From: Acidobacteriota bacterium
Lineage (GTDB): Bacteria; Acidobacteriota; Terriglobia; Acidiferrales; UBA7541
Reading direction: 5' to 3'
Assembly: GCA_003224235.1 (NCBI GenBank)
Contig: QHYU01000165.1
Coordinates: 1-59,005, forward strand
DNA: 59,005 bases
The position numbers were made by a program, and so were the translations under genes. Below, piece by piece: positions 2,681 through 6,575 of this stretch. Position 1 is the first letter of the stretch, and every line of letters starts with the position of its first letter. Under the pieces are notes generated by a model. That model was not told the DNA's origin, ran no database searches, and saw nothing but the letters and a program-made list of their open reading frames with translations.

Positions 2681-3418
2681 TCATTTCGCGCCGCTGTCCT
2701 TGAACGTGAGGAGGACAAAGCGTGACGTGGGGCGCTCGCCCGAGTTCACGAAAGTTGCCGCAGCGCCGGCATTGAGCCAAAGCGCTTCGCCGGAGTGCAG
2801 CTTCTTTGCCGGCTGGCCGGGAGATTCCACATTCAGTTCGGATTGGTCAAGTACGGCGAGGAGCCGCGCGGGCTGTGTATCCGCGCCGGCGATTCTGAAA
2901 ATGGACGCAACCTCGCCCGACTGCACAGCAACCTCGTCGGTTTCGAAGACCAGTGTCGTGCCGGCACCGAGCGGGCTTGCGGTTGTGTGCGGACAATCCA
3001 GCGGGCTGTCGGCGATGACTTTCACGCACCGATTGCGCGGGGCTCCCTGCGGGCGGAGCAGCTCGATGGTGAAGTTGCGGAACGGCGTGTCGGTCTCGGT
3101 GCGCGCGACATGAGAGAAGCCGCCCTTCGAGTAGCTGACCTGCCCGTCGGTCAACGTGACGTGAGCCTCGGGTTTTCCGGTAACCGCGTTGATGAAGTCG
3201 GCGGAGCCGACCGCAATACCGAAATAGGGAAGGTCGTGATTATGAAGCAGCGTGGCTTGGTGCCCGGTGATCCCGAAGGCCCACGCGCGCGCGTAATCAT
3301 TTTCGAACAGAGGGTGGTGATGCGGCTCGTCTTTGAGCGCGACGGGAGCCGTCGCGGGCGCCTGAGCGCCGGCCGCCAACGAAAGAAGCAGAATCGACGA
3401 GAAGAGAATTGCTTTCAT
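2681..3418 (-). CDS. Secreted protein with cupin-like fold
   Basis: A 245-residue exported protein of unknown function. The N-terminus MKAILFSSILLLSLAAGAQA is a clear Sec signal peptide with an AxA cleavage site. The mature part has HHHPLFENDYARAW and LLHNHDLPYF, a pattern of histidines and beta strands typical of cupins. The second half (from about residue 150) again looks like beta strands with a GEALWLNAG turn, suggesting a bicupin arrangement. Metal binding by the first His cluster is plausible but unproven. Similar secreted cupin-like proteins are frequent in acidobacterial genomes. No operon partner is evident. Confidence 0.7.
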   Translation of the reverse strand: MKAILFSSILLLSLAAGAQAPATAPVALKDEPHHHPLFENDYARAWAFGITGHQATLLHNHDLPYFGIAVGSADFINAVTGKPEAHVTLTDGQVSYSKGGFSHVARTETDTPFRNFTIELLRPQGAPRNRCVKVIADSPLDCPHTTASPLGAGTTLVFETDEVAVQSGEVASIFRIAGADTQPARLLAVLDQSELNVESPGQPAKKLHSGEALWLNAGAAATFVNSGERPTSRFVLLTFKDSGAK

Positions 3419-3797: not shown

Positions 3798-5216
3798 CTA
3801 GGGAGCTGTTTGCACCGGAAAGACGTGAGTTGCGGTCGTATCAAACTCGAATCGCAGGACCCATTCACTGGAGACAAACCGACCATCAACTTTCGCAGGC
3901 CAAAACTCCCAACTTTGCGCGGCCTGCAAAGCCAGATTGGCAAAATACTTGCTCGGTCCGGGAGAATCGAACCTCGCTCCTACCACCTTTCCTGACGGAT
4001 CAACAGCGACTCTCACGCTGACCCTCACCTTGCCTCGAATGGTGTCTCGCGCGTTCTGGGGCACGTCGGGCAAGACTTCCCGAAAGACTTCGCCTTGAAG
4101 AAGTCCGCCTGTGGGTGTCTTCACCGCCGTCTCGACTTGAAGGGAGGCAGGCGACGGAGCGGTGCCACGGGAACCTTGCTTTTCATCACTGGTCTTCGCC
4201 GTGAACTGTCCCCTTTCAGGCGTCACTGGCGTCTGCTCCGGTCTTGGCTGAACCCTGGGCTGTTCGGACACAATGGAAGGGGTTGGCTGAGGCTCCCGCC
4301 GACGGTGGAGCAGTCTTGGGCCTGCCAGCATGGCCGCCAGTGCTAGACCAACTGCGACCGCTGGGACAATGTAACGCCGCTTCGCGACCGCCTCTTGCGG
4401 CTCAGCAGTCCTCTGTTCTTCGGGCGTGGGCGCGGGAGCGGGCGCGGGTAAGGTGTGCTGCAGCCGCGCCGAGATCTGGGCAACTGTCCATCGGCGCTCC
4501 GGGTCCCGCCGCAGGCAGTGACGCGCTAAGTCAAGGAATGGCGCGGGCACTGTCTCCGGCAGTGCCGGTTCTCCGTGTTCCTTCCCTTCCCAAACGGGCA
4601 GACGCTGTGTCAGGGCCTCGACCAGGGTCATGCCAAGGGACCAAACGTCCCCAGCCGGTGAGATCGTTCCCCTTGCAGCCTCGGGTGGGTCGTAGACGCG
4701 CGGCTTCCTCCGGCCGCCAGTCGACTCGCCCATCCGGCAGAGCCCGTCGCTCGACAGTTTCAGTTGATCATCGATAGCCATGATGTTTGCGGGTTTCATG
4801 TGGCCGTGCACGAAACCTTTGCCGTGAACGTATGCCAGGGCGTCCAGAGCCGGCGCGAGCATGTCGCGCGCTTCCGCCGGCGTGAGCGGCCGGTGTGGAA
4901 GAATTTGCGACAGGTCCTCACCGGCGTACTCCATCACGACGTAGAGCAGCACCGCGGCGCCCAGTTGGCAGCGTCCCATCTGAAAGAGCCGGATCAAGCG
5001 AGGGTGTGAGAGTTTCGCGGCCAGCCTCCAGCGGGAGAGTTGGAGTTCCGCGTTCCCTGGATCCGCCGGAATGAGTTTGATCGCGGCTTTTTCAAGTCCC
5101 CGCTCCCCGTGCTCCGTAAGAAACACGGCGCTGTGCTCACAGCCACCCAAGTACTGGCGCAGGTAGAATTCCCCATCGACAACCTGGCCTTCCCACTGTT
5201 TCCAGGCCTCGCTCAT
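3798..5216 (-). CDS. Pseudokinase-TonB fusion protein
   Basis: A 472-residue protein with a Ser/Thr-kinase-like domain (about 10-255), a Pro-rich linker, one transmembrane helix (about 282-304) and a C-terminal TonB-type domain (about 389-459, with GKVRVSVRVAVDPSGKV and WEFWPAK). The beta3 lysine (AIK, about 47) is present. The catalytic loop reads HGHMKPAN instead of HRDxKxxN, so the catalytic Asp is His, and the DFG site reads SSDG. The glycine loop is also degenerate. PPE and DVWSLG motifs remain. By family rules it should be catalytically dead or very weak and may act as an ATP-sensing or scaffolding domain, with the TonB part in the periplasm. Start 5216 is preferred because GGGGGAG lies just upstream. 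Confidence 0.8.
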   Translation of the reverse strand: MSEAWKQWEGQVVDGEFYLRQYLGGCEHSAVFLTEHGERGLEKAAIKLIPADPGNAELQLSRWRLAAKLSHPRLIRLFQMGRCQLGAAVLLYVVMEYAGEDLSQILPHRPLTPAEARDMLAPALDALAYVHGKGFVHGHMKPANIMAIDDQLKLSSDGLCRMGESTGGRRKPRVYDPPEAARGTISPAGDVWSLGMTLVEALTQRLPVWEGKEHGEPALPETVPAPFLDLARHCLRRDPERRWTVAQISARLQHTLPAPAPAPTPEEQRTAEPQEAVAKRRYIVPAVAVGLALAAMLAGPRLLHRRREPQPTPSIVSEQPRVQPRPEQTPVTPERGQFTAKTSDEKQGSRGTAPSPASLQVETAVKTPTGGLLQGEVFREVLPDVPQNARDTIRGKVRVSVRVAVDPSGKVVGARFDSPGPSKYFANLALQAAQSWEFWPAKVDGRFVSSEWVLRFEFDTTATHVFPVQTAP

Positions 5217-5445
5217 ATGCTCCCCCGCCTGTCCGCTCACATACGTCAACGTTATTGTACCCGAGCACCCCGCCTGGGTTTCACACGAGAAGTAGCGCCG
5301 TTGCCTGAGGTAGCACGCGAACTCAAGGGCTTCTGGTTAGGCTGTCACGGGCCATCAACTCGTACATATGAGAAATCGCCTTAAGGAGCACAAGGGTACT
5401 TTGTCACAGGTCTTTTTTCACCGCAATGGTGTGCAAGGAGACCGT

Positions 5446-5496: not shown

Positions 5497-5562
5497 ATGG
5501 AAGCTGCGGTCAAGTTGAACCGCAACGCAAGCTCGGCGGCACAGGCAGGACCCTCGGAATGA
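5497..5562 (+). CDS. Possible 21-residue leader peptide
   Basis: A short frame (MEAAVKLNRNASS...PSE) starts 6 nt after AGGAG, and its TGA overlaps the ATG of the following membrane protein gene in an ATGA arrangement. The promoter-like pair just upstream would give a very short 5' leader. The arrangement suggests translational coupling. No attenuator hairpin or codon bias was seen. It could be a chance frame, or an N-terminal mis-start. Confidence 0.3.
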   Translation: MEAAVKLNRNASSAAQAGPSE

Positions 5563-6575
5563 TCACAACAGCACAGAGCGGTTGGTGGTTCAAGAATTTG
5601 CTGCGCGAACGGAGCGTGCAGATCGCGCTGGGGCTGTGGGTTGTGTGCATCGTCGCGATCTTCCCCTTGAGCGACGGGACGCTGCCGTTTAACCGGCCGA
5701 TACTGGCACAGATACCTTTCCGCGGCCAGGTTTTGGTGCAGATTTTGCAGCCGGTGCCCCCTTTCATCTTGATGGGGGTGACCTATTTCCTGACTCGACG
5801 GCGGTCCATTCCGGACATGGCCAGCCGGGCTCCGGCCCATGCTGTCGCACTGCGCGAGACATTGCTGCTGTGGGTCTATGCCGCGTTTGTGCTTGGGATG
5901 GGCCAGATCATCGGCCGCAGGTTTTTCGGTGAAGGAATCGGGCTGCATTTGAATGGCTCGCTGTTTGGTCCGACACGAGTCCAAACCCCACAGGAAGTGT
6001 GGTTCTGGGCCGGACACAATTTCTTGTTATATGCAGTTGTGCCGTACCTGACATTCCGCGCACGCGGGTATTCGCGGGAAGCGCTCAACTTAAAATCCGA
6101 TAACCTGCGAAACGACACGCTGGTCATTCTCGTGATCCTCGCGTTGGAATCTGCGGCCGAGCTGGCGGCGAGCGGTATCTTCAAGCTGACGAGCCACCAA
6201 TTACTCGCGGGCACCGCGCTTTCGTTCGCGGTGCATCTTCTGGGAACCGGATTGCCCGTGATGATTTTCATCTATAGCATTCTCCTGCCACGCTATCTGA
6301 AACTCACGGGCTCGGTCACGACGACGGTTCTGCTCGGGGCGCTCAGTTACGCCGCGCTGCACGTGTTCGAATACTGGACCGTGTACGATTCCGTTTCGCA
6401 TTCCGTATTGTCCGTGATTTTCGTCGTCCTCACGTTTATCGGCCCAGGGATGATCAAGTCGTATCTCACGCTGCGGACGGGCAATGCCTGGGTGCATTTG
6501 TGGGGCTACCACGCCATCGCACCGCACGTCACGACGGATACGCCTGTCGTGGTGAGAGTCTTCGGCATACGCTGA
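5559..6575 (+). CDS. Polytopic membrane protein, CPBP/CAAX-protease-like
   Basis: A 338-residue inner-membrane protein with about eight hydrophobic segments, for example around IALGLWVVCIVAIFPL, TLLLWVYAAFVLGMGQII, FWAGHNFLLYAVVPYLTF and SVLSVIFVVLTFIGPG. The segment LSYAALHVFEYW and the C-terminal AWVHLWGYHAIAPH resemble the second and third motifs of CPBP intramembrane proteases (an abortive-infection/CAAX protease-like superfamily). The first motif, a Glu-Glu pair with Arg, is not evident, so protease activity is doubtful. The start is coupled to a small upstream frame by a 4-nt overlap. No functional neighbour is visible. Confidence 0.6.
   Translation: MITTAQSGWWFKNLLRERSVQIALGLWVVCIVAIFPLSDGTLPFNRPILAQIPFRGQVLVQILQPVPPFILMGVTYFLTRRRSIPDMASRAPAHAVALRETLLLWVYAAFVLGMGQIIGRRFFGEGIGLHLNGSLFGPTRVQTPQEVWFWAGHNFLLYAVVPYLTFRARGYSREALNLKSDNLRNDTLVILVILALESAAELAASGIFKLTSHQLLAGTALSFAVHLLGTGLPVMIFIYSILLPRYLKLTGSVTTTVLLGALSYAALHVFEYWTVYDSVSHSVLSVIFVVLTFIGPGMIKSYLTLRTGNAWVHLWGYHAIAPHVTTDTPVVVRVFGIR

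Follow-up and report, generated by a model that had tools for sequence, protein, structure and literature searches.

One gene in the 59,005-nucleotide stretch of acidobacterial DNA analysed here as a whole (the window, contig QHYU01000165.1) raises the question of what a kinase fold can do in the cell when its catalytic residues are replaced and it is joined, across a membrane helix, to a TonB-type domain. The initial annotation had described the product as a cytoplasmic pseudokinase linked to a periplasmic TonB domain and had suggested that such a protein could couple an internal signal to outer-membrane transport.

The protein is composed of a pseudokinase domain, one membrane helix, a Pro-rich linker and a TonB_C domain, in this order (Table 1). 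This order of kinase, helix and TonB_C was already seen by the initial annotation and is borne out by Pfam, by the structure model and by a single hydrophobic helix between both domains in 64/65 rows of a family alignment, which contains the window protein and 64 of 83 relative ORFs picked as full length. Pfam matches Pkinase with an E-value of 2.1e-24 (86.8 bits, cut-off 31.7) and TonB_C with an E-value of 1.7e-6 (28.9 bits, cut-off 24.6), the latter also being recognised by NCBIfam tonB_Cterm (E 6.9e-9), and both Pfam families are matched at E≤0.01 in 65/65 alignment rows. The ATG taken as start has an equivalent in 65/65 rows, the starts of which were chosen near the expected place; an alternative longer frame starts with TTG at 5249. 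An AlphaFold2 model based on the 65 rows has a mean pLDDT of 83.5; values mostly exceed 90 in the kinase part and in the TonB part, between which lie one long helix and a linker of low confidence. In the relatives this linker has a median length of 64 residues (range 27-127, 64 rows). The order of kinase, helix and outer domain is that of PASTA kinases; PASTA repeats were found by Pfam neither in the window protein nor among the families matched by the 65-row set.

Table 1. Position of the gene and of its features in the window.
Feature	Position	Strand	Basis or remark
Gene for pseudokinase, membrane helix and TonB_C, 472 aa	3798..5216	-	ATG at 5216, stop ends at 3798
Pseudokinase domain, residues 23-249	4470..5150	-	Pfam Pkinase and structure model
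beta3 Lys47, kept	5076..5078	-	Column counts, 77 relatives
HGH replacing HRD, residues 137-139	4800..4808	-	Basic residue in the catalytic-Asp column
SSDG at the DFG site, residues 155-158	4743..4754	-	S156 aligned with the Asp, D157 with the Phe
One membrane helix lacking Ser-x3-His, residues 283-303	4308..4370	-	Structure model and alignment
Pro-rich linker	4093..4307	-	Mostly low model confidence
TonB_C domain, residues 398-459, family signature GPS[KRQ]YFA	3840..4025	-	Pfam, profile, Foldseek

In the structure model the kinase part adopts a bilobal kinase fold that is PknB/Aurora-like with Z values of about 25 (Z 25.1 to PknB, 1o6y, with 239 residues superposed at an rmsd of 2.7), and PknB is also the top sequence match of this part in the PDB. 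The assignment as pseudokinase was confirmed, as the protein carries HGH for HRD (within HGHMKPAN, residues 137-144) and SSDG at the DFG site and keeps the beta3 Lys47. For the survey of relatives, 80 of 97 loci were taken, giving 83 ORFs; the column counts refer to the 77 that are near full length, from 77 loci, with 6 split or short ORFs left out. The column of the HRD Asp contains His in 39, Arg in 35, Gly in 2 and Gln in 1 of these, i.e., His or Arg in 74/77, and the column of the DFG Asp (156) contains Ser in 41, Ala in 14, Thr in 8, Val in 5, Cys and Gly in 4 each and Ile in 1; Asp occurs in neither (0/77). No homolog with intact HRD and DFG is thus present among the 77, and the two relatives in which both motifs are intact, L181 and L192, are more distant. 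Judged from these alignment columns, the motif losses are family traits and not chance.

The surrounding positions show which parts of the site were kept. The column of Lys47 holds Lys in 76/77 and Arg in 1/77, Asn144 is kept in 74/77, and Asp157, one residue past the DFG-Asp column, in 75/77. The first glycine of the G-loop is kept in 72/77 relatives, the second in 2/77 and the third in 11/77. Within alphaC, any one of columns 58-67 holds an acidic residue in no more than 14/77 rows and column 57, at the start of the helix, in 59/77, and in both phmmer alignments of the window protein with PknB that show the alphaC Glu of PknB, this Glu stands opposite a gap. The distance from Asn144 to Asp157 is +13, the same as in PknB, and Asp157 was considered as a shifted metal-binding Asp of the DFG motif. 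This was rejected: the intact relatives L181 (HRD, KLSDFG) and L192 (HRD, KISDFG) have a shorter hairpin with an Asn-to-Asp distance of +12, read by eye, and set the register by aligning S156 with the Asp and D157 with the Phe. Since D157 is kept in 75/77 relatives, the alignments suggest that the DFG site was remodelled and did not simply decay.

The family is widespread within one class. Matches with E≤1e-25 were found in 38/101 genomes, the window's own included, and in the same 38 with the TonB part alone; the one other genome listed under the same genus (G001, 80% complete) gave no match. The whole protein as query matched 111/399 genomes of the class of the source organism and 15/396 genomes in a sample of the phylum, in which the sole match labelled as outside the class is L192, by eye an intact kinase. 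We take 78 of the 80 loci to be from Acidobacteriota by their labels, which give either the phylum or genera belonging to it. The labels of L143 (Gammaproteobacteria) and L170 (Steroidobacter) differ from this and probably denote mis-binned contigs.

Within the class the outer domain is exchanged on the same kind of kinase domain. The TonB piece as query matched 102/399 class genomes, 88 of them at E≤1e-12, a cut chosen after viewing the list by which 14 weaker matches were dropped as uncertain, and the SPOR piece matched 66/399 at E≤1e-6. Both types occur together in 1 genome (G336), compared with about 15 expected if they were independent and kinship is left uncorrected, and in 7 genomes once the 14 weaker TonB matches are counted. 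This apparent exclusivity follows genus boundaries in part. Among the SPOR-type loci 28/66 were read, and all 28 have a kinase-domain match and none has HRD (0/28); the beta3 Lys/Arg is also lost in several SPOR-type members. Conversely, 87 of the 88 TonB_C-type genomes match the whole protein, and for the remaining one (G219) L211 shows a kinase-like match. In G013 and G036, which belong to the 87, the match is confined to the TonB part, which is joined to another, Cys-containing N-terminus. In these, L042 4038-4931 (-) and L043 2596-3501 (+) encode the same TonB_C tail and helix with the Cys-containing N-terminus in place of the kinase, and this N-terminus has no Pfam match at E≤0.001.

Twenty divergent class matches (L172-L191) were fetched in addition. 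Ten have SPOR-type ends, L175 has an RlpA-like end, L181 has a TPR end and 8 are of TonB type or cut by the contig end. Pfam SPOR is above the cut-off in 5/10 of the divergent SPOR-type members and below it in 5/10, and Pfam Pkinase is above the cut-off in 7/10 SPOR-type proteins and below it in 3/10. L175 1111-2511 (+) encodes a degenerate kinase (CRT, DLG) with an RlpA-like DPBB_1 lytic transglycosylase domain, which is over the cut-off, and L181 is an intact kinase with TPR repeats at its end. Further variants were seen along the way. L032 3395-5110 (-), L039 4950-6731 (+) and L040 3140-4858 (-) encode pseudokinase paralogs that have Cys tails of CDECGKEY type and no TonB part; L032 has no Pfam match other than the kinase, and the paralog in L039 adjoins a short, tail-less pseudokinase. 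In seven genomes (G155, G170, G176, G191, G201, G285 and G297) one stop codon lies within the SPOR-type match.

In a tree of 59 kinase-domain rows, one pseudokinase clade of 48 rows with support of 100/99 unites the proteins of TonB_C and SPOR type with the tail-less ones; within the tree, L169 is without and G078 with a TonB part. L175 and then L181, the closest intact kinase, fall outside this clade (99/78 and 100/99), the place of L175 being unsure because of its long branch. The distribution of TonB_C and SPOR requires three changes on the tree. Separate origins of the SPOR type were not upheld, as a topology with a single SPOR-type clade passes (p-AU 0.425) and is not rejected, and therefore the number of exchanges may be as low as one or two. 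On this kinase-domain tree, catalysis was probably lost before, or together with, the exchange of the outer domain.

The outer domain very probably is periplasmic, in agreement with what the initial annotation assumed for the TonB domain. This placement follows from relatives that carry SPOR-type or lytic-transglycosylase-type domains in the same position and from the net charge flanking the helix, which is higher on the kinase side in 36/64 relatives and lower in 13/64.

The genomic surroundings do not supply a partner. Flanks were clustered for 80 loci, which comprise the window and all fetched loci but L102 (79/80), and neither a conserved neighbour gene nor an operon partner was found, the commonest neighbour occurring in 13/80; a convergent downstream gene recurs in 10/80. 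Between 136 and 10347 of the window, the neighbours with Pfam matches are a SnoaL-like protein, an MscS-type channel, an AAA ATPase, ribosomal protein S20, DNA polymerase III delta and LptE; for the ORFs 2681-3418 and 5559-6575, Pfam gave nothing at E≤0.001. The scans gave 2 promoter-like sites, both on the plus strand with the gene on the minus strand, and no terminator. An assignment to a defence system was discarded, as the PADLOC matches (mad6, PD-T4-6 and others) sit on the kinase domain, some extending to residue 338, and the neighbours are ordinary. A viral origin was likewise set aside with just 1 relative in viral contigs, at 25% identity.

Taken together, the protein is best read as belonging to a pseudokinase family that spans the class and shares the layout of PASTA kinases, and its function we infer from there. 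For a non-catalytic, kinase-fold membrane receptor or scaffold, neither enzyme nor energy transducer, we see about an even chance. The cytoplasmic domain would lack the residues for phosphotransfer, judged by the conserved motif losses, and one helix would span the inner membrane. The periplasmic domain of TonB_C fold, on its Pro-rich tether, might dock on the cell wall or on a protein of the outer-membrane side; docking on an envelope component is suggested because TonB_C is exchanged with SPOR and RlpA-like domains, and SPOR is described to bind peptidoglycan (PMC3355149). Such docking would probably alter how the inner domain clusters or which conformation it takes, and this domain could then recruit a cytoplasmic partner, possibly another kinase-domain protein of the genome, in which 19 further Pkinase matches were found. 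In its mode of action the protein would resemble PASTA kinases or the wall-associated pseudokinase MviN, though it has neither catalysis nor a PASTA fold. The conserved Lys47, His/Arg139 and Asp157 may serve non-catalytically to keep the pocket closed or to bind phosphate or a nucleotide. More tentatively, it is possible that the TonB-fold domain has been freed from energy transduction to become an exchangeable envelope sensor and that the pocket rebuilt on Lys47, His/Arg139 and Asp157 reads a ligand or phosphate.

The kinase fold might instead be a pure structural tether that assembles a membrane complex and transmits no envelope signal, like EssB/YukC, a known bacterial transmembrane pseudokinase scaffold (PMC12599244). 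We regard this as rather doubtful. The loss of the catalytic motifs and the lack of a linked partner enzyme would be expected of a tether; however, EssB is degraded in all three motifs and here K47, N144 and D157 are conserved, which suggests that the pocket is used, and the outer domain changes its kind while the inner domain stays.

The role in outer-membrane transport proposed by the initial annotation turns on the nature of the TonB_C domain. Its fold as a TonB C-terminal domain is confirmed by the model and by profile. Folded alone, the C-terminal part reaches a pLDDT of 93.6; its Foldseek search lists TonB or FusB domains in the first 11 rows (best E 2.7e-3, none below 0.001; 1xx3 with TMq 0.68), and TonB domains are matched by its profile with E-values starting at 6.2e-8 (2k9k). 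The domain could accordingly bind the TonB boxes of receptors and compete with or report to the real TonB, with the pseudokinase linking an internal signal, and the genome has 17 Plug-domain and two ExbB-type matches. That the fold is nearest to true TonB domains, whose known partners are receptor TonB boxes, also speaks against docking on the envelope as outlined above.

The membrane helix points the other way. In the helices of TonB and TolA a Ser-x3-His contacts ExbB or TolQ (PMC12905483). The Ser-x3-His of this SHLS motif is present in the membrane helix of 0/64 relatives; in a wider frame it appears in 2/65, where the Ser is in each case the final residue of the helix or lies immediately behind it. 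The remaining 14 TonB_C proteins encoded by the genome served as control. A hydrophobic segment precedes the domain in 12 of them: Ser-x3-His is found in 5 of these 12, Ser-x3-Gln in 2 and neither in 5. In the other 2/14 (L072 and L075, contig C76) no such segment was called, which argues that TonB_C is apparently used outside transducers in this genome. L075 has its TonB_C near the N-terminus, followed by a TPR-like sequence as judged by eye. The D-box of TonB, which binds ExbD (PMC10907165), is matched as a pattern in 0/65 family rows but in just 3/12 of the other TonB_C proteins of the genome and is not discriminating. Neither an ExbB nor a Plug-receptor gene, both of which were searched, lies on the window's contig, so that the search for a TonB-dependent receptor partner led only to the 17 Plug matches elsewhere in the genome. 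Despite its TonB domain, the protein is therefore not filed as a TonB energy transducer, as it has no Ser-x3-His and no conserved neighbour. Moreover, SPOR takes the place of TonB_C in the same clade, and this exchange, as far as it can be read from the sequences, fits binding to the envelope better than transport. Considering these observations together, coupling to outer-membrane transport is unlikely, although the domain may still bind the TonB box of a receptor directly.

Least probable, and quite improbable in our view, is another enzymatic activity, of a kinase with a rebuilt site or of an AMPylase or glutamylase in the manner of SelO or SidJ, which are pseudokinases with gained chemistry (PMC12599244): K47, N144 and D157 are strongly conserved and a basic residue fills the HRD-Asp column in 74/77, but columns 58-67 of alphaC hold no conserved acid, two of the three G-loop glycines are rarely kept (the counts are given above) and several SPOR-type members have lost the beta3 Lys/Arg, so that the clade overall keeps no site.

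For the receptor or scaffold favoured here, the family would have a meaning beyond the single locus. A family kept within a class in which one dead kinase carries either of two outer domains that nearly exclude each other amounts to a natural domain-swap experiment, in which the feature common to TonB_C and SPOR should reveal what is sensed. If TonB_C binds the wall or an outer-membrane protein in this family without ExbBD, many TonB_C proteins of the phylum that would be called energy transducers may need to be read again.

Bacterial pseudokinases are described as little explored by experiment (PMC12599244). Among the matches listed in open-access full-text searches, judged by titles and the openings of abstracts, no TonB- or SPOR-fused pseudokinase was found. 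By the text descriptions of a review, as distinct from its logos, the motifs fit none of the seven families treated there (ActPs1-3, GLW, CP1, DYD and DLHK), and the combination of beta3 Lys, H-x-[HR] and [SAT]D is described for none of these; CP1 shows varied losses but is described without a membrane region (PMC12599244). In YARHG-domain kinases, a kinase is likewise joined to an outer domain for which peptidoglycan binding has been proposed, with the difference that the outer domain is another one and that loss of catalytic residues is not among the features described (PMC3355149). With TonB energy transducers the protein shares the TonB-fold C-terminal domain and the Pro-rich linker; it differs from them in the kinase domain that precedes the helix and in the absence of Ser-x3-His.

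The PASTA Ser/Thr kinases of PknB type have the same plan, with a kinase fold inside, one helix and an envelope-binding domain outside; in contrast, the family described here has lost the HRD and DFG Asp in 77/77 and has TonB_C or SPOR outside and no PASTA. In MviN (ActPs3) of Mycobacterium tuberculosis the pseudokinase comes after a flippase-type membrane protein and is not known to carry a TonB_C or SPOR tail. MviN is alike in being a membrane-linked pseudokinase with control of the cell wall through recruitment of a partner, as it regulates wall synthesis by recruiting an inhibitor, and unlike in having no beta3 Lys (VALT) (PMC12599244). The DYD pseudokinases of Actinobacteria and Firmicutes have a beta3 Arg and the DYD motif, in contrast to the beta3 Lys, [SAT]D and H-x-[HR] found here. 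Their alphaC Glu is reported as missing, and they are similar in having an acid near the DFG site for which pairing with the basic beta3 residue was proposed (PMC12599244); the combination of Asp157 with a beta3 base in the present family recalls, by analogy, the salt bridge proposed for them.
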